Both the position numbers and the translations under genes were made by a program. Below the pieces are notes generated by a model. The model made no database searches. It was not told the DNA's origin and saw only the letters and a program-made list of their open reading frames with translations. From positions 1-51,459 of IMG/VR virus record IMGVR_UViG_3300032093_000194: a DNA stretch of 51,459 bases. One strand, 5' to 3'. Positions 1,754 through 31,884 of this stretch are shown here, in pieces. Numbering within the stretch: position 1 is the first letter of the stretch; each line of letters opens with the position of its first letter. This DNA is from a virus.

Positions 1754-2812
1754 TTAAATTAACTTAGCTGCTATTTCAGGATGACATAAAGCTAAAAAAG
1801 CACAAGGCCTATGAAACTGATCTAAGCATGGAGAAGAGTTAGTCATTTGTTTATTTGGAATTTTCTTCTCATACTTTTCTGCAATTATATCTTTATGCAC
1901 AGAGGTTAGTTGAGATATTGCTTGCTCTCTAAATGTAGGAACCATCTCAGATAAGATTAGTTTATTACTTCTAAGATTATAAACTCCAATATACTTTGGC
2001 TGTTCTCCTGTTAATTCTTCATATGCGTGACTATACATTAATAGTTGATCATTGTAAGCTATATCAACTTCTTGATAGTCTTGTGCGCCACTCTTATAAT
2101 CTATAATAGCAATTTGTCCATCTTGCAACTCTGCTACCAAGTCTATATAAGCTTCTAGTATTGGCCCATCTTTTCCAGTATTAGGAGTAATAATTACATT
2201 TGTTTCTGGTGAAAATGCTAACTCAACTCCTAGTATTTTCTTAATTCTAGGATCTAGATTAAACTTATTAGCAACCTTTATTACTGTGAGAACTAAGTCA
2301 AAAAAGTCTATGTTTTCCCATCTACCATCAACTGATCTAATATATCTATTTATATTATCTTGTAAATCTGATAGTTTTAATTTGGCTATTTCTTTTTTCC
2401 AAGCGGCTGTCATTTCAGGTGCTTGTGCTACTGTTCCATCACCCTTTCTAATTGGGAAATTACCTGTATAGCCTTCTGAAGCTCTTTCATATAATTCTTT
2501 TATTATGTTGTAATAAGCTTCTACTTGTTTAATTTGTTCTGTTAAATCATGTACAAATACTTTACTTAATACTTCATTGGTTGAAGAAAGTATAGTTGAA
2601 TCAGATAGGGTGCAAGGAGGATTATCTATGCCAATAAAAGGAGAATAGTTATCTTCTAATATCTGGTGTAATGAACTGCCAATTAGTGTGGCTTTAGATA
2701 AACTATTATCTCTTAGTTTATCTACATATTTATATTTAAATAAGGTAGAACATACATGATATGTTCTAAGGCGGCTTACTGAATAAGTGGCAGATCTTGT
2801 AGTGTCAGACAT
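1754..2812 (-). CDS. PD-(D/E)XK nuclease with four-cysteine iron-sulphur site (Cas4/AddB-like)
   Basis: This 352-aa protein has the hallmarks of the RecB/Cas4/AddB nuclease superfamily. An N-terminal SVSRLRTYHVC element puts Cys21 in the usual place, followed by GSSLH (His49). The active-site core is Asp224 (EAYIDLV), Asp238-x-Lys240 (IIDYKSG) and the QxxxY motif at Gln256-Tyr260. C-terminal cysteines 329, 337 and 343 (C-x7-C-x5-C) complete a set with Cys21 that in this family binds a [4Fe-4S] cluster. Family members cut or resect single- and double-stranded DNA ends; here likely roles are processing of replicating or packaged DNA, or destruction of host DNA. It follows the giant nuclease/tape-measure gene by 43 bp, has no Shine-Dalgarno (leader ACACAAATA) and is followed by a strong hairpin. 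The nuclease fold is secure; the exact role is inferred. Confidence 0.9.
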   Translation of the reverse strand: MSDTTRSATYSVSRLRTYHVCSTLFKYKYVDKLRDNSLSKATLIGSSLHQILEDNYSPFIGIDNPPCTLSDSTILSSTNEVLSKVFVHDLTEQIKQVEAYYNIIKELYERASEGYTGNFPIRKGDGTVAQAPEMTAAWKKEIAKLKLSDLQDNINRYIRSVDGRWENIDFFDLVLTVIKVANKFNLDPRIKKILGVELAFSPETNVIITPNTGKDGPILEAYIDLVAELQDGQIAIIDYKSGAQDYQEVDIAYNDQLLMYSHAYEELTGEQPKYIGVYNLRSNKLILSEMVPTFREQAISQLTSVHKDIIAEKYEKKIPNKQMTNSSPCLDQFHRPCAFLALCHPEIAAKLI

Positions 2813-2855: not shown

Positions 2856-5800
2856 TTAGGTATTAATAATTCCATCAATAACTTTAGTTCCTCTCTTTAT
2901 ATTGAACTGTTGTAATGCAATTTGTTCACTATCTCTAGAACTTGTTTGTGTAAATTCTAAGGTTGTTTGACCTTTATCTGTTTTTCCTTTAGTAACCTTT
3001 GTTGCTGCTTGAATGTTTGGTGTTCCATCATTTATAAGTTGAATGTGTGGATTAGGTACTATATGACTTCCAACTACATTTAATGCTAAGTTTTTCTTAG
3101 TATTAATCTCATTAACATCATTAGCCATTTGACCCATCTTAGTACTAACCTCTCCTAACTTAACAATTGCTTCTCTTGTTATAGCGTTTATCTCTGTTGA
3201 TCCTATAATAGGAGCAGAGGTTATCTTTCTATTTTCAAGTTCTACAACTCTATTGATCTGACCTTCCCATGCTTGTATTTGTAATCTTTCTGTAACAGAC
3301 ATATATTTAGATACTAATGCATGATTTAACTTGTCATCCATTCTTGTGTTCCAAAATTGTTTACCTGTTACTAGTTGATTATAAGCTTTACCTCTAATAG
3401 CAAATGCAAAGTCCTGAGATGGATCAACAGATCCTGGTCCATATCCTTCAGCAGTAGCAGCATATCCAGTCATAGGAGCATCAAAAGATGTAACAAATCT
3501 ACCAGCAGTCTTTCTGCCAGTTGGATCATCTAAGGTGTCTATTTGTGCCATCCATTCTTGTTTCATTGCATCATTTACTGTGCCTTGAAATAGAGGATTT
3601 CTATAGTCTTTATCCCTATACTTTGTATCATTATATATTTGATTGGCAGGTTTAAATAGATAAGATCCTGGCGCTCCAAACATCTGTGTTGGTAAGTTAC
3701 TAAGATTAGATGCAAAGTCATCTGCTGTCTCAGGACTGTTAAGTATCCAAACAATTTGTACTGCAGTTAATACTAAAGAAGCAACTAAACCCCAAGGTCC
3801 TGCTGCTACTCCAGAAATAGCTTTTAATCCAGCTCCTGCAAATTTTGCACCAGTTACTAATCCTTTAATTGCCATTCCTTGTGCTGTCTTTTGTATTGCA
3901 GCGTTTCTTATTGCTGTACTAGCACTCTGTATAAGACCTACCTTAGCAACTTGTTCTGTTATCTTAGAAGTGATAGTCTTTGCAACTATAGTTTGTCCAA
4001 TCTTATTGGCTATAAATGGAGTTACTAATGTACTACTTAAAGAATCTAATGCCTGTAAACTAGCACCTTCTAATCTGTTATTCTTAGAGTCTAATGAGTG
4101 TCCTAAACCAACTCCAAATATTAAAGCACCAATAGCTGCAACTCCCGCATTAATTAGATTGCCTGTCTTTAAGTAGTTAAGAGTTCCTCCAATACCTAAA
4201 GCTAAACCTCCAACAATGTTTATAACTCCACTTTGGTTTTGAATATTTCTTATTACTTGTCTTCCTCCTTGATAAAAGTCATCCATCTTAGAAGTAATAT
4301 ATCCACCCAACTCAGGACTTAAAGAAGATAGGGATGATCCAGCTAAGTCAAATACACTTCTACCAGCTAAGGTTAAACCAGCTAATCCTATAGAAACTCC
4401 CCAAGTTTTACTTGCTTTGAATAATGCTATAGATGATGCAGCTAAAGTAATACCTACAGCACCAGCAGTAATTCTTCCTCCAGTTCCATTATTCTTAAAT
4501 AGTAAATCATAGCCAAAGAAACCAGCAGCTAGTCCTCCTATTCCAGGAATAATACTCTTCTGAATTGACTGATTCATTAATAATGTACCAAAGAATAAAG
4601 CCCCCCATATATTGTCAAAGCTTTCTTTGGCCATTTCTTCTCTGGCCATTTCTTTTTCTCTTTCTCCTGTTTTACTAGAAGCTACACTAGCTGCAGCTCT
4701 AAATGTTAATAAGTTAGTACTAACAAACATAGCCATTTGATAGCCATTCATTAGTACTGTTCCCATTCTAGATAAACCCTCTAGAAATGTTAAACCTGCA
4801 GTAGTCTGTAATGCTTTAGGTGGCACTCCTACTGGCATACTTCCCTGAAGTCCAGATCTAGTATTTTGTTTTATATCAAGTTCAATAGCTTTTGCAACTT
4901 CTTCTTGTAACTCTTTAGTGGGGACATTAAACATACCTCCACCATATTTTCTTACATTGTCTAATACTTCTTTAGATGCATCTGTTGCTTCTAAAGTCAT
5001 TCTGGTTATTAGATCTCTGTTAGTTCCTCCACTAACTATATTTAATAATCTATCAAAGACAGCAGTTAAACCAGTTCTCTTTGTTGAAATGATTGTGGTT
5101 AATCTATCTTTAATCTGTTCTCTAAGATGTAACTTGTTATTAAATCTTTGATCTACTGATACTTTATTAACATAATCTTCATCAATTATTGCTGTGCTGT
5201 TTAACTCCCTTCTAACAGAATTAGTATAAATATTGTCTGCATCTTGTATAAAAGCTGCTTTAATTCTTTCATCAATAACATCATAGTAACTATCAATAAC
5301 AATATCAAATTTGGCAGCATATACTTCTGTCATAAGATCAATAGAATGTCTCATATTAGGGCTTCTATCTTTGCCAAATATATTGAAACCTCCTCCAAAT
5401 TTTCCTGCCGCTTTAGATATGAATTTATCAGCTTTAGCTTCTAATAAATCATCATAAGTAAAGCCTTTATAATATTTATCTACAAAGTCTGCTTTAGCTA
5501 TAGGAGTTTTAGATTCAGCATTATAAGCATCATATTGACCCTCTAAATAAGCATCAAGAACTTGCTTATTAGTATAATCATCTAATAAGTGTTCTGTTAT
5601 TTTATGTGTTGTATGATTATAAGTTATAGTTTCATCTAGGGTTTCTGAGAACATTACAGATTTAAATTCTCTAGCATGAGTTCTAGCTATTCTGTCATCT
5701 CTAGTAGATAATCTAGTTGTTTGACTTGGTGCTGATCTAGTTTCTAACTCATCATAAAAGTCATTTAATCTTGTTATTTGTTGAGTGTGTGCTTGTCCAT

Positions 5801-8800
5801 AGTTCTTTGAATAGTCTCTATAAGCACTATCAAACTTCATAGATAAAGCTCCACTTAATTCATTGATTTGACTTGTATATTTCTTAGCTTGATGATCTGT
5901 TAAGCCTTCAGCTATTGCAAATACAACTTGTGTTCTTCTTAGTAATAAGAATTTACCTGCCGCCGCTTTTAATTCTTCTGCTTCATATAAATGTTTAGAG
6001 AACCACTTTCCTTCATCAAAGTACTTATGTTGTTGTTCCCATAATAATGTATTGTCTTTTGTTACTTGACCTTGACTGGCTTTAGTGGCAGCAACAACTG
6101 ATATAGCAGCAGTAACTAAACCAAGAGAACCTATTCCAACTGCCATTATAGGCAGCCACATAAATGGTGGAAGAGCTTGAGTTAATCCTTGCAATGAAGA
6201 TGTGTCTCTAACTTTTGTTAGAAATTCTCCAGCTCTTTCAAAGAAGCTTTTATTTGAATCATATTGATTTGCTGTTGATTGAATTGCAATTCCTTGCATC
6301 TCCATAAAAGCATTTTCATTATCACTGTCTTGTATAGACATTTTAGCTGCTATAAAAGGATTAGAGTTAGATGCTAAACCACCTATTTGTTTTACAGTTA
6401 TTTCACCTCCCATAAAGAAATTTTGATTTATCTCTCCTAATCCAGTCTGACTTCCATTGCTTGATATATCTTTTAATGCTTTATAGAACTTACCTTGCAT
6501 ATCTGGTGAAGCTATGTTCATATTATTCATTAAGGTATATAAAGCTATGTTTACATTAGTACCATAAGATAATGCTTGTAGTCTCTTATATCTTTGGTTG
6601 AGAGACATTGCTAAAGCTTTATTAGTAGTCATAGCTTCTAATGTATATTTATTAGGAGATGTAAACTTAATTCTATCTTTACCTGATCTTGTTGGTTGGC
6701 TATATACAGCAGTAATAATGTTAGAAGCAAACTGTCTTAGTTGTGCTTGATTGTGTCCAGCAGCATCATCAATTCCTCTTAAATTAGCAATAATATTCTG
6801 TGCTAAGAAACCTTTCTTAGCTAATTCTTGTAGTCCAAATACAGATGACATACTATACATTGCAGATGAGAAATCTTGTGATGCTGATTGTATTTGGAAA
6901 TAGTCTCTAAGTCTTACATCACTATCATCTGGTCTTATTGTTATACCACCAACAGCCACACCAATAAAGGTATTTGGTGAATTTACAATTATTAAATTAC
7001 TCAATTGTTTTAGTGAGTTGTTTATTGCTCCTTTAGTTGTACTGTCTGGATTTATTAAGAATTCACCTTTACTATTATGTAAATTAGGTCCTACTAAACC
7101 TTTAGCAATGTCATAAGAATGGGCTCTATCATACTTTGTTTGTAGTTTAACAAAGTCTACTACACCTTTTCTAAAGTTTGCCCAAGGTGTGTTGCTGTCT
7201 TCATCTGCTCCTATTAAAGCATCTTGAAAGTCCTTATAACCCATGCCTTGAGATGCCCAATTTAAGCCATGAAATGTTAGTCCAAGTAAGGCTGTAGTTC
7301 CGCCTAATCTAGCCCATCTTTCTATATGAACTCTATTACTAGCAGATCTATTTATACTCATTCCTTTTAACACTGCTGAGGCTGGTTGATTGTTAGCAGG
7401 ATTACTAAACTTATCTAACTCAGCTAATACTGCTGAAGCTTGGTTATTCTTTATAATTGAGTTTAAGTCTGTACCAGCACTTATATCTAAGGACTGTAAA
7501 CCTTTATAGACATTATTAGATCTATTACTTGTTATTTGTTTAATGTTTGAATATGGATCACTTACATTAAAAGCATTTTTGAATATCTTTCCTTGTGCAT
7601 CTTCTACTGCTTGAATAATAGGAGAGTTGCCCATTCCTTCTTCTATTATTATTTGTACTTCTCTTGCTTCCATGTTTAACTTATATGTTTCATACTTTAA
7701 GCTTAGAGATTGTATAAAGCCAATATTCTTCTTTCCTATTGGCACTTGTTGTAGTCTTTCTACAACAGTTAATCTATTCCTAAATCTCTCAACAATTTGT
7801 TCAGGATTAATATCTGCAAAGATTAAACTCTTAGGATTAAAGGATGTAACTCCTGCTGTTAATGCGAATAAGGTTGCACCAAAAGCAACAGTTGTCATTC
7901 TTCTTGTATTGTCATATTTATCTTCTGTTTGTTTTGTTAAATCTCCAAATGCTATTTCTGGATTTACTTTGCCTGATGTTGGATCTGTTATAAAATGATT
8001 CCACAAAGCTCCAACAGCTAGTAAGCCTAATCCTTTTCCTACTTTATTTTCTAATGTTCCTGTTTGGAATACAGCACTTTGTTTTACAAAGCCTCCAAAC
8101 TTGCCTAATGTATTTCTATATAAACCTTTAAGACTGTTATTAGAATACATCCAAGCAACTAAAGGATCTATCTTTGTTTTGTCAAATCTTGCACTTGTAA
8201 TATTTAATTCTGACTCTAACATTGCTAGTCTTCTAGAGGCTGCTATTGTACCTTTAGCATAACTAATACCTCCTATAAGAGCAGCTCCTGCCATAATAGA
8301 AGCACCTCTTAAAGCAAAGTTTCCATCTTTATCTTCTTTCTTATTTGTAAAAGGTTGAGATAATGTATTAATAACACTATATAAGTGATTACCAATAGCA
8401 CCTCCCATAAAGGCACTAAATACAACAGGCACAAATGATGTTGATCTTAATCTTAAGCCTGGCATCCTAAAGTCACCAGTTGTTAGATTAAGAGACTGAG
8501 CAGCTATATAGAAAGGCAATGTAGCAATCCCTAAGAACTTATCTCTGGCAGCCCTTGTTGATTGTGTTATTAAAGATTCAGTGGCAACAACAGTTCCAGT
8601 TGATTTAAGTATTTGATGGTTTCTTCCCCATATTCTATTCCTTACTAAGGTGTTAGATACTCCTATACCAACTCCACTCCATAAGGCTACTTGGCTATAG
8701 ATGTTATAATAATCTTGTAAGCTTAAGGAGTCCTTATTCCCTTCATTAAGTATTAGACCAGTTCCTAGATAACCAGTTTTAATGGTTACATTATCAGCAC

Positions 8801-11800
8801 TCTTAGCATTCATTGCAAATGCAATTGGAAAGCTTACATTAATAGGTGCTACTCCAACAGCAGGAGGTCCTTGTAAACCTAAGTTAACAGTTGTATAACT
8901 ACTACCATTACTATCTACTACCTTTTTAATTACACTGTAATATTGAAATATAGGCAGAGGAGATTGTGTAGCAGTTACATATGCAGTGCTACCTTTTTGA
9001 GATGATGTAATTGGATTAATAATCTTACCTAAAGCTACTGCTAATAAGGCAGCATTAACTTCAAGTGGTGATATAGAATCACTAATAGAAGCTGAACCAC
9101 CATCTGAGGTTCTAGCTTGATCTATTCTTTTATTAACATGTTCTACATAACTTCCAAGTCTAGCTATAGCTGTTTGATTTGTTTCATCTAGTTTTGGCCC
9201 ATTTATATCACCTTGGAAAGGGCTTAGTCTGTTCCAATAAGCTATTCCTAATCCTATAAGACTAATTGCTGTAGTTGTAATAGGATTTCTACCAAATAGG
9301 TTAGCCGCTCCTTGTAATCCTTTTAGTAATGTATTACCTAACATACTTGTAACTTTGTAGTTACTATATCCAAGTTTACTACCACTAACCATATGTAATG
9401 AGTGAGCCATATTATCTATAGTTGTAGTAACACCAAATGCTATGGCAGGAGCAGCTAAAAATGCAGTAGATAAAACAGCAGAACCCATTAAGTTTCTTTC
9501 ATTGTTAATGGTAGAACTAATCACATATCTAGCAGTTTGCATTGCTGCTAAGGTTAAGCCTAAACTAATAGAGAAAGATGTCCAGTTCTTTGCAACTTTA
9601 GCATTAAGAGCACTTAGTCCTGTTATATTTCCATTTTCCCTTACAACATTAAAACTTAATTCTTTACCACTAATTAATTTAACTGTAACTGCATTTTTAC
9701 CAGCAGACAAAGTTGTAAGTTCAGCCATAGTTGCAGACTGAACAGCTTGACCATTTACTTCTGCTATATTATCTAATAAAGCTTGTCCAGTAAACATCTT
9801 TCCATGTATTTCAGGTGTGCTAGTAGATGCATGATCATACGCCCATCTAACTATTCCAGCCATTGTAACTAAACTTTGAGTACCTAATACAAAGTTAGCA
9901 ACATGATCATTAGCACCAGCCATCTTTACTAATTCAGCAGCAGAGAAGAAGTTAGTGCTTTGTAATTCAATTGATGTGTTAGTTGTTCCTCTATTTAGTT
10001 GTATTTGAGCTAAGGTAGATGTTAGTAAGGAGGCTCCAGTTGATTGAGCAAACTCTGTTAATACTAATTGAGGTATGAATAAAGCACCAATAATCCACTT
10101 AGCAGCAGCTAATTTAGTACTAGATATCTTCATACCTACATAACTATTTCCCTTGTCTAAATGGTTTAATAAGAAACCAACACCACCTGAGCTGTGTGTT
10201 TTATTAGCATAAGTATATAAAGCATCGTCTAAAGTTATAGTTCTAAGGCCTACTCTTTTGCTTGATAAAGCTTTCCATTTAGCCTGATATGTTGCTTCAT
10301 TGTCTAATAATTCTTCCACTGATACCGCATCTAATGCATTAGTATTAAACACATCAAAACCTCTAGCAGATCTATTCTTTGCAGAATCTATAGAGTTATT
10401 TGTTCTTACTTTTACATTATCTTCTAAGTTTATTTCTGCTTGTGAGTATGTTTTACTAATCTTACTAATGTCTTCTAAGTCTCTTTTAGATTGGCCACCT
10501 CTAGTATTAAAAGATAATATAGATCTGGTCATTGTTGCTATATGATTCATTATTCTGAAGGCAGGATAGGAGGCTTTAGTACCATTCTCACTGAACAACA
10601 TAAACTCATTAGCTGCGCCCCAAAAACCTTGATTGTTTAATGATGCATTAACATATCTGGCAAAACCTTCAATGTCTAATAAGTTACCAATCATAGGAGC
10701 TGTTACATTGTCTTTTCTGCCAGCAAATATTCCCCATGCCCAAGGCATAGGGACTAAGTTGATTACTCCTTGTATCTTCTTAGCAAGCATCATGTTTCTT
10801 TCTATAGAAACATTGGTTATCTTTAATTCATATTGTTTGTTAACTGCATCATTAATCTCCTTAACAACATCAGATGTTGGTTTGATAGTTGCATCATTAC
10901 CTCTAAGAATATCTATGGCTCTGGGTATATTAAAAGTTTTACCAGAAGCTGTTGTTATGTTTACTGTGTTCCAATCAATTGATTTGGCTCCACTAGTTAT
11001 AACTTCTCCAGCTCTATCAATAATCTTTATGTCAGCAGGTGATTGTAATACTTCTAGGTAATCATTAGTAGCAGAAATTAAGGCTTTAGATTTATTAGAG
11101 CCTAATGTATATGGATTAATCTTACTTATTAAGAATTCTCTTGCAGTTGCTGAGAAGAAGAAACCACCTCTTTGTCTTTGATAGTTATCTAAATAATAAA
11201 GAGAGAATGTAGGATTATCTAATGAATAGTAAGCAGTTGTTGCACCCTTAACTTGTCTTTCAATGACAGACATTTTAAAGCCAATATTATCATTGTCTGT
11301 TCCTCCTAATGCCCACTTAGCAGCTTTATTTGTATCAGCAGCTTTAATAAGAGCCTCTTGACTATTAAGTAAAGCTCTAGAAGCCATTGCTTTAAGTGGC
11401 TCTCCAACTGCTAGATAAACTCCAATAGAGGAGGCGGTAGCCAATACAGTAGCAGCACTATTTGCAAGTAAATCTTGAAAGAAACTTGTCTTAGTTGTAA
11501 AGTAATTTTCTCCATCATCTTTGTAGCTTCTTAGTACTGGATTATTAGTTAAATATGATTGATCAATGAGCGCACCAACTGCACTAAATAGAGAAGGAAT
11601 TGGTCCTCTTTCTTCTTGTAATACTCTACCCATACCATTAGGTATAAAGAAGAATTCATTTATTCTACTCATTAATGATGGTGAATTGACAGCAAAATCA
11701 AATGCTTTAGCTACTGCTACTTCATCTCTTGATAAGTTATTATTAGTCTTACTAGCTCTAAGTATGCCTTCATATGTTCCCATATCTTCAGCATCAACAA

Positions 11801-13142
11801 CAGATGTAAACCTACCTGATGCTCTCATAGAAGCATTATATCTAGCTAATTCAAATTGTTGTGAATGAGTTTTCTTATTACTAATAACTAAACCTCTATA
11901 TTCCTTATCAGTGTCATATAAAGGAGCTAATAAAGGATTGTGTATACCCTTAGCTCTAGCATTAATAACAGCCTTACTCTCAAAACTACTGTTTATATCA
12001 TCTAAGTTTACATGTAATAATCCTTTACCATCTTTAGGCGCATCATATACATTTTGTAATATTTGTTCTTCTACTTCTGGATCTAGATGAGGAAATAACC
12101 TTTTCATTCCTGTTAGTTCTCTAATCTGTCTACCATCTGCAAGTTTATAATCCTTCCAATTATCTTTTACATTTTGACTGTTAGGCATTATAACAGCAAT
12201 AGTTTTTGTGTCTTTTGTTATTGTTGTTTGTCCTGGCTCTAATACAACGGCTACCTTCCATAAAACTTTAGGTACTTCTACTCCATTAATACTCTCAACA
12301 TAACCATTCTTACCAATACCTCCTTTACCAGCACCACCTGTTATAATTTGAATCTCTCTTTCGGTATAACCAAATAAAGGAATGCCAAAAGGTCCTTTAC
12401 CTTCATGTACTTTATTGTTTAAATAGTGTTCTAAATCTGCCCAAGGACCTGCATTAACTTCATGTGCTTGTGCTAACATGTTAGTCATTACATATGTAGA
12501 AGAGTTAATTCCTACAGTACTTGTAAATGCAGCAGAGTTAGCCAAGTGACCTCTATCAAATCCTTTAAATCCTGTAAAGTCAACCTTCTTAAAGTTAGAC
12601 GGTAGATTTGTATCATTTCTAAAATCATTCTGTCTACTAACATTACCTAAGTTATTTTTTGTCAGTTTAAAAGCAACCCAATTAGGCCTGCCTTTTTCAT
12701 TGTTGTAACTAGTAACAAATTGAGATCTGCCTTCTACTTTATTTTCTAATATGTAGTTATTACTGTCAGATGTATTAGCTCCCGTTGGATTGCCAATAAG
12801 TGATAGATTAGAATTGTTTTTATAGTTATAGCTGTCATTGCCAATATAACTTTGTTCTACTATTCTTTTATTTGTCTCTACATGTACATCTAAACCAGTT
12901 AGATCAAAAGAATAACCAACCTTAGGAGCATTTCCATAGCCTCTTAGATAATCATTGTATCTACTTTTATTATCACTAAATGCAGAGAAGTTTCCTACTC
13001 TATCCTCAAATAACTTTCCTTTATATTGCCAATCCCAATTACCTTTGTTATAAGATGATGTTGCATCCTTAATAGCAAATGAGCCATAACCTAAAGTTGT
13101 GGCTCCTATTCCAGTGGCAATTGCAATATTAAGTAAACTCAT
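2856..13142 (-). CDS. Giant tape-measure-like virion protein with N-terminal DNA/RNA non-specific endonuclease domain (3428 aa)
   Basis: Residues about 70-345 form an Endonuclease_NS (Serratia nuclease/EndoG) domain: DRGH at 196-199, then Asn221, Asn230 and Glu238 in TNMLAQ and NAGPWADLE. The spacings (H to N about 31, N to N 9, N to E 8) closely match the catalytic and Mg-binding set of the Serratia enzyme. The remaining 3000 residues are helical, with more than 20 hydrophobic, glycine/alanine-rich segments from about residue 570 to 3130; the longest is near 2340. It is the only protein in the window long enough to be the tape measure of the contractile tail, and no other candidate lies in the usual place between tube and hub. 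Alternatives are an ejected pore or internal virion protein. The leader is A-rich without Shine-Dalgarno. Coding is secure, the nuclease domain strong and the tape-measure role inferred. Confidence 0.93.
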   Translation of the reverse strand: MSLLNIAIATGIGATTLGYGSFAIKDATSSYNKGNWDWQYKGKLFEDRVGNFSAFSDNKSRYNDYLRGYGNAPKVGYSFDLTGLDVHVETNKRIVEQSYIGNDSYNYKNNSNLSLIGNPTGANTSDSNNYILENKVEGRSQFVTSYNNEKGRPNWVAFKLTKNNLGNVSRQNDFRNDTNLPSNFKKVDFTGFKGFDRGHLANSAAFTSTVGINSSTYVMTNMLAQAHEVNAGPWADLEHYLNNKVHEGKGPFGIPLFGYTEREIQIITGGAGKGGIGKNGYVESINGVEVPKVLWKVAVVLEPGQTTITKDTKTIAVIMPNSQNVKDNWKDYKLADGRQIRELTGMKRLFPHLDPEVEEQILQNVYDAPKDGKGLLHVNLDDINSSFESKAVINARAKGIHNPLLAPLYDTDKEYRGLVISNKKTHSQQFELARYNASMRASGRFTSVVDAEDMGTYEGILRASKTNNNLSRDEVAVAKAFDFAVNSPSLMSRINEFFFIPNGMGRVLQEERGPIPSLFSAVGALIDQSYLTNNPVLRSYKDDGENYFTTKTSFFQDLLANSAATVLATASSIGVYLAVGEPLKAMASRALLNSQEALIKAADTNKAAKWALGGTDNDNIGFKMSVIERQVKGATTAYYSLDNPTFSLYYLDNYQRQRGGFFFSATAREFLISKINPYTLGSNKSKALISATNDYLEVLQSPADIKIIDRAGEVITSGAKSIDWNTVNITTASGKTFNIPRAIDILRGNDATIKPTSDVVKEINDAVNKQYELKITNVSIERNMMLAKKIQGVINLVPMPWAWGIFAGRKDNVTAPMIGNLLDIEGFARYVNASLNNQGFWGAANEFMLFSENGTKASYPAFRIMNHIATMTRSILSFNTRGGQSKRDLEDISKISKTYSQAEINLEDNVKVRTNNSIDSAKNRSARGFDVFNTNALDAVSVEELLDNEATYQAKWKALSSKRVGLRTITLDDALYTYANKTHSSGGVGFLLNHLDKGNSYVGMKISSTKLAAAKWIIGALFIPQLVLTEFAQSTGASLLTSTLAQIQLNRGTTNTSIELQSTNFFSAAELVKMAGANDHVANFVLGTQSLVTMAGIVRWAYDHASTSTPEIHGKMFTGQALLDNIAEVNGQAVQSATMAELTTLSAGKNAVTVKLISGKELSFNVVRENGNITGLSALNAKVAKNWTSFSISLGLTLAAMQTARYVISSTINNERNLMGSAVLSTAFLAAPAIAFGVTTTIDNMAHSLHMVSGSKLGYSNYKVTSMLGNTLLKGLQGAANLFGRNPITTTAISLIGLGIAYWNRLSPFQGDINGPKLDETNQTAIARLGSYVEHVNKRIDQARTSDGGSASISDSISPLEVNAALLAVALGKIINPITSSQKGSTAYVTATQSPLPIFQYYSVIKKVVDSNGSSYTTVNLGLQGPPAVGVAPINVSFPIAFAMNAKSADNVTIKTGYLGTGLILNEGNKDSLSLQDYYNIYSQVALWSGVGIGVSNTLVRNRIWGRNHQILKSTGTVVATESLITQSTRAARDKFLGIATLPFYIAAQSLNLTTGDFRMPGLRLRSTSFVPVVFSAFMGGAIGNHLYSVINTLSQPFTNKKEDKDGNFALRGASIMAGAALIGGISYAKGTIAASRRLAMLESELNITSARFDKTKIDPLVAWMYSNNSLKGLYRNTLGKFGGFVKQSAVFQTGTLENKVGKGLGLLAVGALWNHFITDPTSGKVNPEIAFGDLTKQTEDKYDNTRRMTTVAFGATLFALTAGVTSFNPKSLIFADINPEQIVERFRNRLTVVERLQQVPIGKKNIGFIQSLSLKYETYKLNMEAREVQIIIEEGMGNSPIIQAVEDAQGKIFKNAFNVSDPYSNIKQITSNRSNNVYKGLQSLDISAGTDLNSIIKNNQASAVLAELDKFSNPANNQPASAVLKGMSINRSASNRVHIERWARLGGTTALLGLTFHGLNWASQGMGYKDFQDALIGADEDSNTPWANFRKGVVDFVKLQTKYDRAHSYDIAKGLVGPNLHNSKGEFLINPDSTTKGAINNSLKQLSNLIIVNSPNTFIGVAVGGITIRPDDSDVRLRDYFQIQSASQDFSSAMYSMSSVFGLQELAKKGFLAQNIIANLRGIDDAAGHNQAQLRQFASNIITAVYSQPTRSGKDRIKFTSPNKYTLEAMTTNKALAMSLNQRYKRLQALSYGTNVNIALYTLMNNMNIASPDMQGKFYKALKDISSNGSQTGLGEINQNFFMGGEITVKQIGGLASNSNPFIAAKMSIQDSDNENAFMEMQGIAIQSTANQYDSNKSFFERAGEFLTKVRDTSSLQGLTQALPPFMWLPIMAVGIGSLGLVTAAISVVAATKASQGQVTKDNTLLWEQQHKYFDEGKWFSKHLYEAEELKAAAGKFLLLRRTQVVFAIAEGLTDHQAKKYTSQINELSGALSMKFDSAYRDYSKNYGQAHTQQITRLNDFYDELETRSAPSQTTRLSTRDDRIARTHAREFKSVMFSETLDETITYNHTTHKITEHLLDDYTNKQVLDAYLEGQYDAYNAESKTPIAKADFVDKYYKGFTYDDLLEAKADKFISKAAGKFGGGFNIFGKDRSPNMRHSIDLMTEVYAAKFDIVIDSYYDVIDERIKAAFIQDADNIYTNSVRRELNSTAIIDEDYVNKVSVDQRFNNKLHLREQIKDRLTTIISTKRTGLTAVFDRLLNIVSGGTNRDLITRMTLEATDASKEVLDNVRKYGGGMFNVPTKELQEEVAKAIELDIKQNTRSGLQGSMPVGVPPKALQTTAGLTFLEGLSRMGTVLMNGYQMAMFVSTNLLTFRAAASVASSKTGEREKEMAREEMAKESFDNIWGALFFGTLLMNQSIQKSIIPGIGGLAAGFFGYDLLFKNNGTGGRITAGAVGITLAASSIALFKASKTWGVSIGLAGLTLAGRSVFDLAGSSLSSLSPELGGYITSKMDDFYQGGRQVIRNIQNQSGVINIVGGLALGIGGTLNYLKTGNLINAGVAAIGALIFGVGLGHSLDSKNNRLEGASLQALDSLSSTLVTPFIANKIGQTIVAKTITSKITEQVAKVGLIQSASTAIRNAAIQKTAQGMAIKGLVTGAKFAGAGLKAISGVAAGPWGLVASLVLTAVQIVWILNSPETADDFASNLSNLPTQMFGAPGSYLFKPANQIYNDTKYRDKDYRNPLFQGTVNDAMKQEWMAQIDTLDDPTGRKTAGRFVTSFDAPMTGYAATAEGYGPGSVDPSQDFAFAIRGKAYNQLVTGKQFWNTRMDDKLNHALVSKYMSVTERLQIQAWEGQINRVVELENRKITSAPIIGSTEINAITREAIVKLGEVSTKMGQMANDVNEINTKKNLALNVVGSHIVPNPHIQLINDGTPNIQAATKVTKGKTDKGQTTLEFTQTSSRDSEQIALQQFNIKRGTKVIDGIINT
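12108..12935 (-). other. DNA/RNA non-specific endonuclease domain of the giant protein
   Basis: This is the domain boundary estimate for residues about 70-345. His199 is the expected general base, Asn230 and Glu238 the metal site, and Asn221 a further conserved residue. Both the DRGH box and the downstream N-x-G-x-W-x-x-L-E box are intact, so it is predicted to be active rather than decayed. Enzymes of this family cut DNA and RNA with little sequence preference. Confidence 0.88.
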
Positions 13143-13153
13143 TTTTTTATTAG

Positions 13154-13981
13154 TTAGAAAGAAGAAACAGTATTTTGTAAGAATGAACTATTATTAATAT
13201 AAATGTTCTGAGGAAATAAACTATTCTTAAATAGTATTTGTTTAATATCAACTGGCTTTACATAGTTAATTGTAAACACTTGGCCCAGAGGAACATTAGT
13301 TGTTAGAAGAGTATCAGTTGTATTTTTATAGTTTATTGCTGCTTGTATAAGTGCATGTTCTGTTAGAGTTGTATCTACTGTAATAGTGTTACTAATTGAA
13401 TATGTAACTGGATTTACAGTTGGAGATGTAACAGTATATAGTACATGTATATCAGGATGATCTAATAAGGATATGGGCGCTCCAGTAGATGTTAGAGATA
13501 AGCTTAAAGACTTGAAAGATCTTGATAAATTTAAGTATTGATAATTTACTAAATATCTATTAGATGGATGTGGTATTAACCAATACTCAGTCTTTAATAG
13601 TCTATGTCTTAGTGGTGGTCTTTTATATGATTTAGGAAATATCATAGGCTGCCATTCCCAGTATTCAACAATATAACAAGAGCCTTCTCCCCATCCAACT
13701 GTAGGTTGTAACCCTACTCTTATTTGATTTTTATATATGCCTTCCCAAGGAATATTATAAACAAAGGTTCTAGGAATATACTCAGTATCATTTCTAATAG
13801 ATGTTGGTGGTTTTATTTTTAAGTAATATCTAGGGGCTAATTTTATTGGTTTAGTTACTAGATTTAATATGTTATCAGTTGTTAATGGTGTTTGTAGTGT
13901 GCCTACTGGAATAGGAATGATAGGGTCTACTGATTCTTCTATAAATTCCTCTACTGTAAATATAACTGGTGTCTTAATCAT
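13154..13981 (-). CDS. Hypothetical virion-associated protein, 275 aa
   Basis: I do not recognise this protein. It has a proline-rich, beta-type N-terminal half with many aromatic residues (VEYWEWQP near residue 107) and a Thr/Ser/Asn-rich beta-type C-terminal half, with no signal peptide, membrane segment or catalytic motif. It starts at ATG 13981 directly after the terminase stop (TAA at 13984-13982), with an AGAGG Shine-Dalgarno in the terminase 3' end, so it is translationally linked to packaging. It ends 11 bp before the giant tape-measure gene. The composition fits a small virion or tail component; any more specific role would be a guess. Confidence 0.8.
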   Translation of the reverse strand: MIKTPVIFTVEEFIEESVDPIIPIPVGTLQTPLTTDNILNLVTKPIKLAPRYYLKIKPPTSIRNDTEYIPRTFVYNIPWEGIYKNQIRVGLQPTVGWGEGSCYIVEYWEWQPMIFPKSYKRPPLRHRLLKTEYWLIPHPSNRYLVNYQYLNLSRSFKSLSLSLTSTGAPISLLDHPDIHVLYTVTSPTVNPVTYSISNTITVDTTLTEHALIQAAINYKNTTDTLLTTNVPLGQVFTINYVKPVDIKQILFKNSLFPQNIYINNSSFLQNTVSSF

Positions 13982-16168
13982 TTAATAGCCTCTATATGTA
14001 TTTCTTTCTTTATGTTGCTGTAATCTATTTATAGAGCTTCCTACAGTTATTTTTCTAGGAGTATTAATATTAATAAGTTTAGGAGCTTTTAGTTCAATCT
14101 TATTAATTAGATTACAATTAGAACCATATGTATAAGCTTCAAATACTGATACTGCTAATGCATCTGGTAAGTCCTTTGTACCATATGGGTGAACTATTTG
14201 ACCATTATCTTTAATAACTAAAGAAGGTAAATCTGTTTTTATAAGAGCTGTCCAAGGACTATCAATAGGAAATAATACATCTCCTCTTTGTATTAATTGT
14301 CTTAATAAGTTGTAGTAAGCTAATTGTTTTTCTCTAGAGAATGAAACAATTTTAGTATTAAGTCCTCTACTATATAAGTTTTGATTGAGAGAAGAAGAGT
14401 TAAAACCATCAAATGATATAGACATGATGTTCATATATTGGCTTATATATATTAGTATTTCTTCTATATTTATATAAGATACTTCTCTAAATTTACCCTT
14501 CTCATCAATGCCTGGTGTCCAACATGCAATGCCAATAACTTCTATTTGTCCTCTATTATTAATAGTAGCTATAGACATAGCAGTAGCATCTTTCTTTAAA
14601 CTTGTATCTACATGTATAAAACAAGCTGTATTTACATTAGATATTCTATTGATTTTAATGCCTCTATAATGTCTATCTTCTATGTCTAAGTTATATTCCA
14701 TTACATCTATTGAAGACTGTAAAGAACATAATTTATCTAATAAATCAGCTTCTAGAAAGGAATTATCATTACTGCTTCTTATATTTTCATATTCTAATCT
14801 TGCTCTTTTAGGTTCTGAAGAATAATCAGATATAATGTCTGGATTACTTCTAGTTATAGTAGGATTAACATCAAAACAAGTTAGTTCTAATATAAGCGAG
14901 TAAGGGTCACCAGCAGCTTGATGTTTTAATGTTACCATTGGATCTGTAAAAGACCATGCAGAAGATACTACTATTTTTTTACCTTCTCCTTTGAATCTGT
15001 TGAGTGCGCGGCCCACATTTTGATAAATGTTAAGTCCTGTGTTTAAACCATCACCAGTAGTTTCAAAACGAGCCATTTCATCTATAAATAATAACTTTAA
15101 GTTATATCCTACAAGTGCTTTTGAATTTGTATGCTTAGCATAAAGAGATATAAATTTATCAGGACATCTAATCTCATCACTAAGTACTACTATTTTCTTC
15201 TTTTTAATCAGGGATTTAAAAAAGTTAGAACTATCAAGAAATGATTTAATAGCTTTGAAACTAGTTTCTAATACTTGTGCTTCTGTTTGTGCTATAGCAA
15301 AAAGGGCAATTGGAGAGAATGACATTAGACCATAATGTAAACCTGGATCAGGCAATGAAATTAATTTGTAAAATTCATATAGACAAATAATAGAACTCAT
15401 TGATGATTTACTGCTGTTATGACTAACAATAGAATTGCCTATTATATGAGTGTCTTCTACTTCAAATCCAATAATGTTTTTATATCCAATAGCTTTAACT
15501 TTAACTACTTCTTCCCATTCAATAACATACTCTGTGTTGGAAGAGGCAAATGTTAAATTGTTTAATACAGCTACTTTATCTTTCTTATTTAAGTCTTTTA
15601 TTTGTATCCAACAAGGGCCAAATGCAGTTTTTACTAAGTAAGGATGATCACTTGTTACTTCCTCTGTTTTACCTGATTTAAGTGTAATACTATAAGCTTT
15701 TTGTAAGCCCTGATCCCATGTTCTAAATTTGTTAGTTGTAAATACTTTATAAGTTATTGAATCAACTGTATAAATGTATATATCTTCATCTTTTCTCTCA
15801 TGCAATTCTTTATATGTAATAGTGCCAACAGAGGTAATTATGTTAGAAGTTTCTACTGGGCAGCCACGTCCTGCTTCTAGTATTAAGTTTGTATACTTTC
15901 TTCCATTGATCCAATTAGTCTTTCCTTGTTCTCTCCATCTGTCTAATATATCTATATGTACTTGATCTAGTGGCTCATTATAGATGGCTTTTAATATTGC
16001 CTCTTGTGTGGGCCATAGCTTCGTTGTAGAGTCATTAAATAGTATTGAATTAGCAAAGGTAACAATGTCTATATTGCTACCTTGTGGAGTGTTTATTGAG
16101 GCTTCTGTGAGATCTGTTAATAGATCATTTAAGAAGTCTTTAGTTGTATAATCTGCTTGTGGTCGCAT
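13982..16168 (-). CDS. terL: Terminase large subunit interrupted by a mini-intein (728 aa precursor)
   Basis: This is the ATP-driven DNA-packaging motor and nuclease. Removing residues 103-251 (intein) leaves a 579-aa terminase with Walker A GRG-SSKSS, Walker B LLFIDE (Asp363, Glu364), a coupling-motif-like SSAWS (402-406), and a C-terminal RNase H-like nuclease with Asp521 (HVDTS), Asp587 (SFDGFN) and the DLPDA motif (Asp666, Asp669). The intein sits exactly inside the Walker A loop, so the unspliced precursor cannot be an active ATPase. The gene lies at the far end of the tail operon, between small virion genes and the unknown 275-aa gene. The leader is A-rich (ATAAAAAACAAC before ATG) with no Shine-Dalgarno. 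Identification as TerL is very secure; whether packaging is headful or site-specific cannot be told. Confidence 0.95.
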   Translation of the reverse strand: MRPQADYTTKDFLNDLLTDLTEASINTPQGSNIDIVTFANSILFNDSTTKLWPTQEAILKAIYNEPLDQVHIDILDRWREQGKTNWINGRKYTNLILEAGRGCPVETSNIITSVGTITYKELHERKDEDIYIYTVDSITYKVFTTNKFRTWDQGLQKAYSITLKSGKTEEVTSDHPYLVKTAFGPCWIQIKDLNKKDKVAVLNNLTFASSNTEYVIEWEEVVKVKAIGYKNIIGFEVEDTHIIGNSIVSHNSSKSSMSSIICLYEFYKLISLPDPGLHYGLMSFSPIALFAIAQTEAQVLETSFKAIKSFLDSSNFFKSLIKKKKIVVLSDEIRCPDKFISLYAKHTNSKALVGYNLKLLFIDEMARFETTGDGLNTGLNIYQNVGRALNRFKGEGKKIVVSSAWSFTDPMVTLKHQAAGDPYSLILELTCFDVNPTITRSNPDIISDYSSEPKRARLEYENIRSSNDNSFLEADLLDKLCSLQSSIDVMEYNLDIEDRHYRGIKINRISNVNTACFIHVDTSLKKDATAMSIATINNRGQIEVIGIACWTPGIDEKGKFREVSYINIEEILIYISQYMNIMSISFDGFNSSSLNQNLYSRGLNTKIVSFSREKQLAYYNLLRQLIQRGDVLFPIDSPWTALIKTDLPSLVIKDNGQIVHPYGTKDLPDALAVSVFEAYTYGSNCNLINKIELKAPKLININTPRKITVGSSINRLQQHKERNTYRGY
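15416..15862 (-). mobile_element. Mini-intein (149 aa) in the Walker A loop of the large terminase
   Basis: The element runs from Cys103 to Asn251 of the terminase frame. Block A is CPVETSNIITSVGTITY with catalytic Cys1. Block B is VTSDHPYLV, with the conserved His-Pro. Block F resembles GFEVEDTHIIGN. Block G is IVSHN, followed by Ser252 as the +1 nucleophile. All residues needed for class 1 protein splicing are present. At 149 aa there is no room for a LAGLIDADG or HNH homing endonuclease, so it is a mini-intein that cannot home by itself. It is in frame with its host gene and has the same AT-rich base use as its surroundings, suggesting long residence. Confidence 0.93.
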
Positions 16169-28676: not shown

Positions 28677-30839
28677 TTATAATATAAAGTAGTCATTGAT
28701 TGATGTTTCTTGTGTAACTGGGAAGGTGTTTTCTTGCAGTAAGATTGATTCTTCTGGAGGTGCCAAATCACATTGACCATCACTTAAGAGTATTAATTGT
28801 CCATTTATATCTACTTGACATCTATAGTCTTCTAATTTTGATATGTCAAAACAAAGATTAAAGTTAGATACTATTGGCATTTCTAAACTGCTAACTAAAT
28901 TGGTTTCTATTCCTAAAGACTTTACTTGATTATTTATATAACTTAGTATCTCAGTATCATAAAAACCTTTAACCTCTAAATCTATAGAATTACTATATCT
29001 TCCAGGCCATAAACTATTAGTAACTCTTTTGCCAAATGTTATTGTTTTCTCTAATAGTTCTTTTGTATTAGCAATTAAACTGTCTTTGTAAATGTTAGTT
29101 AGAGCCTGCTTTTCAATATAAGTGTCTTGAATATATTTACTATGAAGATATAAATCTATTATTGGTTTTATAACACTTCTTATAATTAAATCTTGAGTGG
29201 GAGTTGTATCACTTAACCAACCAAAGTCTATAGGTATATAACTCTTAAACTTAGTAAAAACTTCTTGTTTAAATAAAGATAAACTATTTAAAATATCTGT
29301 GTTTAATTGCTTTGTAGTTTCAAGATTTAACACATCAATAATTAACTTATTGTTTATAGATAAGCTGTGTTTTAAATTGCAGTTTATAAGTTTTAAAACT
29401 AAAAGATTGATTGAATTATATGTAATTAAAGTTGGCTGGTTTGTTAGATACAATACTTCAGTTGTATCTGTTATATATGTTATATCTTCTAATACATACT
29501 CTTTTATATTTATTGGTTTGTTATTAATATAACTACTTAATAAATCTCCAAATACTTTTGATGTTGTAGTTATTGTAGGATTATCTAAAGACTCAATATA
29601 AACATCATCTTTTATTTTATATAACTTATCTATATTTTCTATTAACGTTGTAGCTATTGATAAATGATATACATCTTTTGTTATTTTATAAGTCTCTACT
29701 AAAGCTATAAGTTTTAATACATCTTCTTTTAACGTGCTAGTTTTTAAGTTAATACATAATTCTATATATTCTAGTAACTTCGGTCTTAAAGAATCTTTAT
29801 TTATTTTAGCTAGGCATAATAACATTAGTATAGTAGTAATGTTATTACTAGACAGCTCCTTATATGTTGTTGTTGAATATACAGCAGGATTTATTATTAT
29901 TTCTTCTAGTTCATCTAATTCATGAGTAACTAAACTGTTGAATTCATATGGGGTTGTTACATTCTTTATATAGGAATAAGGATTAGAATTGCTAGTAGAA
30001 ATACTATTAATAGTATTTACTATTACATTTATTAATAACTCTTGTTCTTGTTTATATAATACTAATTCATTTTTATTCTTAATTTCTAAGCTAGTATATA
30101 ATAAATAAACTATAGATAATAATACTTCTTCAGTATTATTATTTAAGGATTGCCAAGGTAAATTTGTATTCCAATCTGATCTAAAAAACAAGGGATTACT
30201 TACAAATTTATAAGTGGTTATTACTTGTTCAATGTCAAACTTTGTTATGGTAATACAAGGATTAAATCCTTCAGGAACTCCTTGATTCCAGATTATAATA
30301 GAATCAAGTAAACCTTTATTTTTAATTATTATAATCTCCTCTCCTGTTTCTTCATGAATTAAACTTACATTATAAATATAAGAGTATCCATATCTATCTG
30401 AATTGGCTTTTACAAAATAATAAGTATCTTCCTCTATTAATACACTCTTATTTGTTACTATTGCTTTTGTCCATATTCCATATTCCTCTACACAGCTTTC
30501 ACCAATACAACCTTCTTCTATATAATTAGGTTGCTGAATGAGATCTAAGTTGTTTAATGTAATTAATAATTGATGAGGGCTTTTAGAGAATGTTGGATAT
30601 ATTAAATTCTGCTTCTTTTGTAGTATTTCTATGGATTGTTGTTCGCTTTCTATTATTTCAGAACATATAGGATTGCAGTCCACATCAATACATTCAGCAC
30701 CTAAACCATTTCCATTTATTATTAGCTCAGCAGTAGCTTGAGAGGAAATAACATTATTTGCAGACCACCAAATGTTATTTCCTCCTTGATCTAGATAACT
30801 AAGAACATAGTTAAAATAGTTATTACTTTGATTTAACAT
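28677..30839 (-). CDS. Wedge-position virion protein with helical central region (720 aa)
   Basis: No family is recognised. The N-terminal 160 residues include two cysteine-rich stretches (ECIDVDCNPIC near 51-61 and CIGESC near 114-119) that could bind a metal or form disulphides. Residues about 230-450 are a run of amphipathic helices (LLCLAKINKDSLRPKLLEYI and similar), reminiscent of a helical-repeat or alpha/alpha-toroid fold. The C-terminal part includes DLYLHSKYIQDTYIEKQ and a small beta domain with two Cys. It directly follows the Baseplate_J gene (17-bp overlap) and precedes the fibre, the place held by gp7 in T4 or gpI in P2, so a baseplate wedge or fibre-attachment function is likely. 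Confidence 0.82.
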   Translation of the reverse strand: MLNQSNNYFNYVLSYLDQGGNNIWWSANNVISSQATAELIINGNGLGAECIDVDCNPICSEIIESEQQSIEILQKKQNLIYPTFSKSPHQLLITLNNLDLIQQPNYIEEGCIGESCVEEYGIWTKAIVTNKSVLIEEDTYYFVKANSDRYGYSYIYNVSLIHEETGEEIIIIKNKGLLDSIIIWNQGVPEGFNPCITITKFDIEQVITTYKFVSNPLFFRSDWNTNLPWQSLNNNTEEVLLSIVYLLYTSLEIKNKNELVLYKQEQELLINVIVNTINSISTSNSNPYSYIKNVTTPYEFNSLVTHELDELEEIIINPAVYSTTTYKELSSNNITTILMLLCLAKINKDSLRPKLLEYIELCINLKTSTLKEDVLKLIALVETYKITKDVYHLSIATTLIENIDKLYKIKDDVYIESLDNPTITTTSKVFGDLLSSYINNKPINIKEYVLEDITYITDTTEVLYLTNQPTLITYNSINLLVLKLINCNLKHSLSINNKLIIDVLNLETTKQLNTDILNSLSLFKQEVFTKFKSYIPIDFGWLSDTTPTQDLIIRSVIKPIIDLYLHSKYIQDTYIEKQALTNIYKDSLIANTKELLEKTITFGKRVTNSLWPGRYSNSIDLEVKGFYDTEILSYINNQVKSLGIETNLVSSLEMPIVSNFNLCFDISKLEDYRCQVDINGQLILLSDGQCDLAPPEESILLQENTFPVTQETSINDYFIL

Positions 30840-31884
30840 TTATTGTTACCTCATTTGGCTTTAATAAATATTCATTTATAAGAGGTGAAATATTAGTTGT
30901 AGGCTTTGTTATCTTGTTTCTATAACCTGTATAAGAAGATATAAAACTAGATAGTTCATTAATAATTAAAGTTTCACCAATAGATAAATTACTAAAGTAA
31001 ATGTTTACTGCTTGTTTAATATTATTAGAAATAGTAGTTATACTATCAGATATAAATGAATCAATTATTACATCAATTGATAAATCTATAGACTGATACT
31101 GAATAGGTTTAATTAATAAGAGTACTCCTAGTGGTTTGATCTCTTCTAGTTTATTTGACAGCAAATCAATAGTTAACTGATCAGAAGTATTTATATATAC
31201 TGATGTATATCCAGCAGCAGGCCTTCCTTCAACAAAGTAAACATCACTTACATAATTTTGAATGATTGCTTTTATAGTAGGTAAAGTAACTACTCCTTTA
31301 TTATTAATATATGTACTAAGTCTACTTCTTAGATTTTCATCACTCTCACTAGAAGATCCACCAGAAAGATATCCAACAATTTGATTATCTGTGTTTCTAA
31401 ACTCTCCAACAACTATTGTTAGTTGAGGAAAATTAGGACTAGTTAAAGATACTTGTGAGAATAAATTTGCATCAAATGATTTAGTAATTGATACAATAGG
31501 AACTGTTATCTCTTTATTAAGTGGAATATTTACAGCCTTGGTAGTCTGAAAAGTTAAGAAGCCATTATTAGTTTGTAATAAAGTTCCAATGGGAATACTT
31601 AGTTGTGTTGATGATTTAATAATAACTGAACCAAAAGCACTTGTTCCTGCTCTTCTAACTAATCCATAGTTATTTGCATATAAGTCCAATTGAGTTCCAG
31701 ACACTGTTGATACTAGTTTTGTATCTATAATTTGTTGGATGACTTGTTCTTGATTAAAGCAAGTTAAAGCCATGCCTCTCATAAGAACATATAAGTTACC
31801 TGTGTTGTTTGCTGCAGTTTCTAATGGTGTGTCTCTAAACTGAATTTTTATATCTTCTAATATTTGTTCTACTGTTCTAGACAT
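30823..31884 (-). CDS. Baseplate wedge protein, Baseplate_J family (353 aa)
   Basis: The protein fits the Baseplate_J family (P2 gpJ/T4 gp6-like), which builds the ring of the contractile baseplate. Features are the helical start with TGTPLD-type sequence (VSGTQLDLYANNYGLVRRAG, 61-80), the strand region GSVIIKSSTQLSIPIGT, and the family signature GGSSSESDENLRSRL at 175-189 (acidic Glu-Ser-Asp-Glu followed by Arg-x-Arg). Length is near the usual 300-400 aa. It overlaps a gp25-like candidate by 8 bp upstream and a wedge-position protein by 17 bp downstream, the classical gp25-gpJ-wedge order. A Shine-Dalgarno (AAAGGA) lies about 9 nt before the ATG. Confidence 0.93.
   Translation of the reverse strand: MSRTVEQILEDIKIQFRDTPLETAANNTGNLYVLMRGMALTCFNQEQVIQQIIDTKLVSTVSGTQLDLYANNYGLVRRAGTSAFGSVIIKSSTQLSIPIGTLLQTNNGFLTFQTTKAVNIPLNKEITVPIVSITKSFDANLFSQVSLTSPNFPQLTIVVGEFRNTDNQIVGYLSGGSSSESDENLRSRLSTYINNKGVVTLPTIKAIIQNYVSDVYFVEGRPAAGYTSVYINTSDQLTIDLLSNKLEEIKPLGVLLLIKPIQYQSIDLSIDVIIDSFISDSITTISNNIKQAVNIYFSNLSIGETLIINELSSFISSYTGYRNKITKPTTNISPLINEYLLKPNEVTINVKSK

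Follow-up and report, generated by a model that had tools for sequence, protein, structure and literature searches.

Analyzed here is IMG/VR virus record IMGVR_UViG_3300032093_000194, a 51,459-nt sequence (positions 1–51,459; hereafter, the window) that is, by homology, a phage contig akin to Microcystis phage LMM01. Its minus strand carries a giant open reading frame (ORF) of 3428 residues in which a predicted nuclease of the NucA type is joined to a very large body, and relatives of this giant carry nucleases of other classes in the same N-terminal slot. Sequence comparison alone establishes the fusion, the homology of the bodies, the exchange of nuclease folds and the retention of most catalytic motifs. 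The reading that we favor, at a probability of roughly one half, is that the giant would be a virion-borne carrier that travels in the particle, goes into the new cell along with the DNA and there exposes an exchangeable nuclease; that the protein is part of the virion, that it acts as a tape measure and what its nuclease attacks are what we infer.

A NucA-type nuclease at the start of a giant phage protein

The giant and its parts are located as follows.

2856–13142, minus strand: giant ORF, 3428 aa, ATG start, no interruption; N-terminal nuclease and giant body; homologue of LMM01 gp120 and of a 4151-aa protein of Microcoleus phage My-WqHQDG (My)
12108–12746, minus strand: Endonuclease_NS (NucA-like) domain, residues 133–345; Pfam E 2.1e-33; NucA 2o3b E 4.9e-32
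12546–12557, minus strand: DRGH box, residues 196–199; His kept in 3/3 family members with Endonuclease_NS; Arg is Met in L083
12429–12455, minus strand: N-x-G-x-W-x-x-L-E metal box (NAGPWADLE), residues 230–238; Asn and Glu kept in 3/3
2856–12002, minus strand: conserved giant body, residues 381–3428, from the body profile
11337–11702, minus strand: patch of the body with the highest conservation, close to the junction, residues 481–602, from pairwise and multiple alignments
6474–7070, minus strand: second conserved body patch, residues 2025–2223, from alignments

An earlier note on this DNA had described a Serratia-type endonuclease, recognized by these two boxes, fused to the N-terminus of a giant tape-measure-like protein. 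The stretch that it singled out, naming no strand (12108–13142), corresponds exactly to residues 1–345 of the 3428-aa giant on the minus strand, and both boxes are indeed present at the start of that protein. The profile search against Endonuclease_NS that the note had proposed placed the domain at residues 133–345, with a score of 116.3 bits against a curated Pfam cut-off of 23; a chance match of this predicted domain is excluded. The superfamily was named correctly, but the nearest solved structure is that of Anabaena NucA (2o3b/1zm8, E ~5e-32; phmmer against the PDB), with EXOG, EndoG and the Serratia enzyme itself (1g8t, E 6e-5) far weaker in the same search. The catalytic His and the metal-binding Asn and Glu are H199, N230 and E238; we take the His of the DRGH box to be the general base and the second box to bind the metal. 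AlphaFold2 returned a low-confidence model of the nuclease (pLDDT 39) for which Foldseek ranked NucA first (E 5e-8); because the TM-score was just 0.25, we do not count this match as proof of the fold.

Could the fusion be an accident of assembly? This is unlikely, because two further IMG/VR contigs carry the entire giant at 100% identity and the fusion recurs in two diverged contigs: L008, which is 46% identical end to end, and L083, which is 49% identical over an 887-column overlap limited by the contig end. The same fusion, which the earlier note had suggested seeking in other huge phages, is present in at least these relatives.

A family of giants with a shared body

The family was widened via the terminase: at each locus, the large ORF downstream of this gene was examined, and 26 representatives (L124 included) were kept. 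Before any counts were made, we dropped 15 LMM01-type contigs (95–97% identical to LMM01 gp120 over the stretch compared), the pair of contigs that is identical to the window, and L025, L077, L078, L111, L117, L118 and L120 (95–100% identical to kept rows); more fragments of the LMM01 type, and copies of the same contigs that overlapped, were omitted without an identity check. At L057, L113, L116, L125, L126, L130 and L131, the giant was not within the locus.

A profile made from eight bodies recovered 14 of the 18 remaining ORFs at E 0.002 or better (E-values for 26 sequences). When rebuilt from 18 bodies (the eight and 10 of the 14), it recognized five members that had not been included, with E-values from 5e-252 to 6.5e-8, although three of the five (L129, L127 and L123) have relatives inside the profile. 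As a control, 26 other large ORFs of the same loci were compared with the body profile, and the best E was 4.6. By this measure, the body is shared by 23 of the 26 large ORFs that follow this terminase type, the weakest member being L128. Between the window body and those of LMM01 and My, homology is weak and occurs at several sites, with E down to 1e-18. The length of the giant ranges from 2766 to 4151 residues in the seven representatives whose ORF ends inside the sequence.

The bodies of L079, L110 and L124 were unmatched by the profile and were excluded from the 23. In L079 (11954–21724) and L110 (11918–21700), the large ORF that immediately follows this type of terminase starts with a domain resembling phospholipase D (PLD), but no body match comes after it; the two are family members that have diverged strongly or else unrelated carriers that share the slot. 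L124 has neither a body match nor a PLD-like start. Two pattern scans for the body in bacterial and archaeal genomes (GTDB species) yielded no confirmed case, and Streptomyces phage Faust, the one phage with a distant terminase that was examined, has no giant within 14 kb.

Three nuclease classes in the N-terminal slot

Among the 23 members, the slot is assigned to Endonuclease_NS in three, to the staphylococcal-type nuclease SNase in six and to the PLD type in ten; none was identified in the other four. Endonuclease_NS exceeds its Pfam cut-off in the window, L008 and L083; SNase does so in L024 (E 4e-12), L058, L074, L101, L109 and L128, and PLDc_2 in six members: My (E 1e-9), L097, L112, L114, L115 and L129. 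The score for L097 is 45.3 bits; an earlier, over-short fragment of it had given E 0.031. The four other PLD assignments (L108, L121, L100 and LMM01) rest on a custom PLD profile instead of a Pfam cut-off. Its first round gave E-values of 7e-27 for L108, 1e-8 for L121 and 1e-5 for L110 (best shuffled or control row, 0.087), and its second round 4e-14 for L100 and 9e-7 for LMM01 (best shuffled or control row, 0.2).

The assignment of LMM01 rests on iteration, because intermediates alone raised its score: in round 1 its E of 0.12 was no better than that of the best shuffle, and in round 3 it reached 5e-13 (against 1.4 for the best shuffle and 0.73 for L119, the highest-ranking of the other family members). 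Its slot region is related to that of L100 (E 2e-34). Direct pairwise tests of this region as a PLD domain (single-sequence hhalign and Smith-Waterman) gave no support, and AlphaFold2 produced a low-confidence model of the LMM01-type N-terminus (pLDDT 30). Searches of PDB sequences with the PLD and SNase slots returned nothing useful.

Two close pairs of giants differ in the class of nuclease that they carry. My and L024 agree at 82% over 22 residues near the start and at 71% over 2963 body columns, and between these stretches lies a PLD domain in the former and an SNase domain in the latter; the cassette measures roughly 1190 residues in one and roughly 230 in the other. The bodies of L115 and L109 agree at 40% over 1927 columns, beginning at residues 768 and 238, just past the PLD and the SNase domain, respectively. 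Three predicted nuclease classes on a homologous body, with two close pairs swapped, correspond to a polymorphic-toxin design in the broad sense.

State of the catalytic motifs

When the six diverged SNase slots are aligned, 102 columns are free of gaps and 10 of them do not vary; these 10 include D, R, E and R, which we take, together with a further Asp, to be active-site residues; the further Asp is Asn in L128. The enrichment of the motif among invariant columns (hypergeometric p 5e-5) is descriptive, because the choice of the four residues followed inspection of the alignment. Across twelve PLD slots (L079 and L110 included), invariance is confined to 4 of 168 ungapped columns, of which three are the first-motif H and K and the second-motif H, and the fourth is an L. 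The second motif reads HxK in seven of the twelve and HxN in five (LMM01, L100, L121, L110 and L079). All three NucA-type slots keep H, N and E, with the Arg of RGH changed to Met (MGH) in L083; because 73 of their 224 columns are invariant (p 0.03), conservation of the motif is weak evidence in this class.

The HxN and MGH variants, together with the 4/23 members in which no nuclease was recognized, would fit a slot domain that is mostly structural or a relic, its chemistry no longer used. We consider this quite improbable, as the catalytic residues are among the few invariant columns and other intact-looking nucleases have been substituted more than once.

Gene neighborhood

The main gene block of the window lies on the minus strand and has the order sheath, metallo-endopeptidase, baseplate wedge, DUF4815 protein, terminase, 275-aa protein, giant and PD-(D/E)XK exonuclease. 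The neighbors that matter here are listed below.

43624–46386, minus strand: tail sheath (contractile tail), in the block shared with the giant; phrog_30392, E 2e-85
30823–31884, minus strand: baseplate wedge protein, in the block shared with the giant; phrog_6, E 8e-33
13982–16168, minus strand: large subunit of the terminase (728 aa), containing an intein-like insert; phrog_17415, E 2e-16; ~40% to the LMM01 terminase
13154–13981, minus strand: 275-aa protein encoded between the terminase and the giant; relatives of it lie nearby in L008 (E 6e-109), My (6e-15), L024 (6e-14) and, weakly, LMM01 (0.005)
1754–2812, minus strand: PD-(D/E)XK exonuclease, directly downstream of the giant; PF12705, E 3e-21

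The giant shares this block with sheath, baseplate and terminase genes, a point in favor of the virion-borne carrier. A single small gene, that of the 275-aa protein, separates it from the terminase, which is ~40% identical to the terminases of both LMM01 and My; in these two phages, giants of 2898 and 4151 aa come shortly after the terminase. The giant likewise follows the terminase in the relatives examined, with up to a few small genes intervening.

This position after the terminase, and the PD-(D/E)XK exonuclease that adjoins the giant in the window, would also suit a virion or assembly protein whose nuclease processes phage DNA, either by trimming or clearing it at the portal or neck or by finishing packaging with the terminase. 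We regard such a role as unlikely. Terminases normally have their own nuclease, and three unrelated, sequence-nonspecific nucleases would be risky near the phage's own DNA. Moreover, four members have no recognizable nuclease, and five PLD domains look impaired.

In many lineages, a small gene (209–289 aa in the loci examined) separates the terminase from the giant, either singly or accompanied by further genes, and it possibly encodes a neck or chaperone protein. Its relatedness was compared across five lineages and was weak for LMM01. That it is related across NucA-, SNase- and PLD-type lineages argues against a class-specific inhibitor. As to the insert in the window terminase, its Intein_splicing match scores 28.4 bits, under the Pfam cut-off of 35.8; the insert is missing from the close relative L008 and bigger in L083, and the terminase frames of L101 and L127 likewise exceed the usual length, at 1672 and 1466 aa.

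Is the giant a tape measure?

The earlier note's claim of a nuclease fused to a tape-measure-like protein stood in its first half: the nuclease is fused in frame with a giant phage protein. The second half fared less well, as the giant has no tape-measure family match and its gene lies outside the sheath-to-baseplate stretch. Against PHROG, the giant matched two families of unknown function, a nuclease family and, weakly, an adaptor (E 0.095), and no tape-measure family; against Pfam, Endonuclease_NS was the sole match, and no MuF domain was found. The position outside the sheath-to-baseplate stretch holds for the window, LMM01 and My, the tube gene having been placed by adjacency to the sheath only. 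A 381-aa ORF of the window (37312–38457) matches several tape-measure PHROGs, with a best E of 5e-31, via its M23 peptidase part.

As a rule, a tape measure spans 1.5 Å of tail per residue. At this ratio, the 2898 residues of the LMM01 giant would predict ~430 nm, roughly twice the 230–260 nm tail of a relative. The relative is MaMV-DH01, whose tail length is taken from an excerpt of the MaMV-DH01 paper.

The body of the window giant contains 9.9% Ala and 2.7% Pro and has six transmembrane-like segments. Among seven large window proteins compared by this crude composition measure, the giant is the alanine-rich, proline-poor one with several such segments; of the six others, the DUF4815 protein alone has any (two). 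LMM01 gp064 also passes on alanine alone (10.1%). With observations pointing both ways, the giant is a possible tape measure.

Counted over whole proteins, there are six transmembrane-like segments in the window giant and 21 in that of My. Such segments could instead make the body a membrane anchor for a non-virion protein, made late, whose nuclease degrades host nucleic acid for nucleotides or for host shut-off; that no virion proteomics was found for the family leaves room for this reading. This explanation seems doubtful to us: the location in a structural and packaging block is conserved, phages usually use small soluble nucleases for such breakdown, and a carrier of this size (2766–4151 residues) would serve no evident purpose.

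Alternatively, the nuclease might do its work before the cytoplasm is reached, during adsorption or entry, where it would digest DNA of the slime, the envelope or the periplasm and so let the particle pass. NucA and staphylococcal nuclease are secreted enzymes by origin; the phage has a contractile tail, and a metallo-endopeptidase is encoded in the same block. The domain lies, on the other hand, in the N-terminal part of the longest protein and not in a fiber or baseplate protein, and known tape measures have a head-proximal N-terminus that leaves last. We therefore give this explanation little credence.

Other large proteins in these phages

LMM01 encodes a second giant, gp080 (3562 aa; LMM01 57700–68388), with relatives in seven of ten records searched; these include L140 (from 631, plus strand), L135, L136, L137 and a contig with the window's giant (L003's record). 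In four of those records, a gp080-type frame has a PLDc_2 match under the Pfam cut-off (E 2.5e-6 to 1.8e-4). Comparison of gp080 with the giant body gave no BLAST match and a profile score of -0.4 bits. LMM01 gp064 (43811–48832, 1673 aa) has an arginine-rich start and, by eye, a zinc-peptidase-like HELVHH motif. In the L116 record, PLDc_2 exceeds its cut-off at 194588–194929 (minus strand) in a 4246-residue open frame near the record end opposite the terminase; this frame may be the giant, split across contig ends.

Proposed function of the giant

We return to the reading of the giant as a packed carrier that brings a nuclease into the new cell. The giant would be made with the packaging and tail genes of LMM01-like contractile-tailed phages, and its N-terminus would serve as a slot for a nonspecific nuclease, of the NucA type here and of the SNase or PLD type in relatives. 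It would be loaded into the particle, possibly in the role of the tape measure or in association with it, would cross the envelope with the DNA, and would then release or expose the nuclease against nucleic acids of the infected cell; the nuclease could cut the chromosome of the host, plasmids residing there, the genome of a rival phage, or RNA. As the earlier note had pointed out, the nuclease would have to be silenced beside the phage's own DNA, and this problem is real. In the producer cell, silence might come from an unfolded or metal-free state inside the tube or from an unrecognized partner.

We put forward a bolder version tentatively, as the less probable claim. In it, lytic contractile-tailed cyanophages would run polymorphic-toxin logic in the virion: a tape-measure-like giant would deliver an interchangeable nuclease from the head-proximal end, and an arms race with host inhibitors, with defense, or with rival phages and plasmids would drive the exchange of its class. 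A second and unrelated giant in the same phages, of the LMM01 gp080 type, would carry another PLD-type nuclease and bring the number to two per particle.

Several observations weigh against the packed-carrier reading. The slot class tracks the terminase tree: for 25 rows (the 23 members plus L079 and L110) and four slot labels, "none" included, the minimum is 7 changes, compared with a mean of 11.7 when labels were shuffled, and as few as 7 occurred in 0/200 shuffles. Because of this difference, we consider the slots to be mostly inherited and occasionally replaced, not freely exchanged. Some rows of the tree are long-branched and single deep placements are unsure; the My/L024 and L115/L109 swaps hold regardless, because they are independent of deep placement. 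Pfam detected no recognizable nuclease in L119, L122, L123 and L127, which form one clade, and comparison of this clade with the PLD alignment (hhalign, 55% over 45 columns) was insufficient. The invariance of the PLD motifs is biased, because the rows were gathered partly by those motifs, and the five HxN domains may be inactive. No virion proteomics was found for any family member, no immunity gene was recognized, and the structure models are of low confidence (pLDDT 30 and 39). Finally, one observation calls for particular caution: LMM01 infection caused no significant change in host transcript levels, according to an excerpt of PMC5780444. At least in LMM01, whose second PLD motif is degenerate, a delivered domain would thus seem not to wreck the chromosome early; there it may act on plasmids, on the DNA of rival phages or on RNA, or it may lack activity.

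Comparison with known systems

The systems closest in logic, by analogy, are the MuF toxins and the polyvalent proteins. As presented in excerpts of Jamet 2017 (PMC5576092), MuF polymorphic toxins are likewise phage proteins that belong to the packaging module and whose toxin domains can be exchanged, and delivery by phage has been proposed for them; they join a MuF domain to a C-terminal toxin extension in temperate phages of Firmicutes, whereas here an N-terminal nuclease sits on a body of thousands of residues. Moreover, the relatives LMM01 and MaMV-DH01 are lytic cyanophages, unlike the temperate MuF phages. If the packed-carrier reading is true, lytic phages would diversify injected effectors by domain swapping, a practice that would then extend beyond temperate MuF phages and bacterial secretion systems. 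The role of the largest unannotated genes beside the LMM01-like cyanophage terminase becomes directly testable, and a biochemical puzzle is posed by how a nonspecific nuclease would stay silent next to the genome of its own phage.

Polyvalent proteins, in the excerpted text of Iyer 2017 (PMC5512222), share with the giant a large multidomain build and a presumed route of packing and injection by the phage. They combine many conserved conflict domains, with ParB-like DNases and predicted RNases discussed in that text, whereas the giant has one nuclease and a body without known domains. Polyvalent proteins are a loose class, and the giant is likened to it by description, not feature by feature; the terms tape measure, PLD and thermonuclease have 0 occurrences in the main text of PMC5512222. 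The N4-type virion RNA polymerase of schitoviruses (PMC12633501, in excerpt) is also an enzyme of ~3500 residues that is packed in and ejected from the particle; its likeness to the giant would be one of size and packing.

Nearer in sequence are LMM01 gp120 and NucA. The former (phrog_29513) is a homologue of the body in the same place after the terminase and is annotated as hypothetical; its N-terminus is PLD-like with one motif degenerate, whereas that of the window giant is of the NucA type. NucA of Anabaena (1zm8, 2o3b) is the closest solved relative and shares the catalytic boxes. It is a free secreted enzyme and has an inhibitor, NuiA; the window nuclease, in contrast, is fused, and no NuiA match was found in five records by a search whose control was likewise empty. 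The open-licence literature searched, represented in part by excerpts, contained no description of a nuclease–giant fusion. A recombining toxin on a fixed carrier is a design already known, and the giant family shares it.

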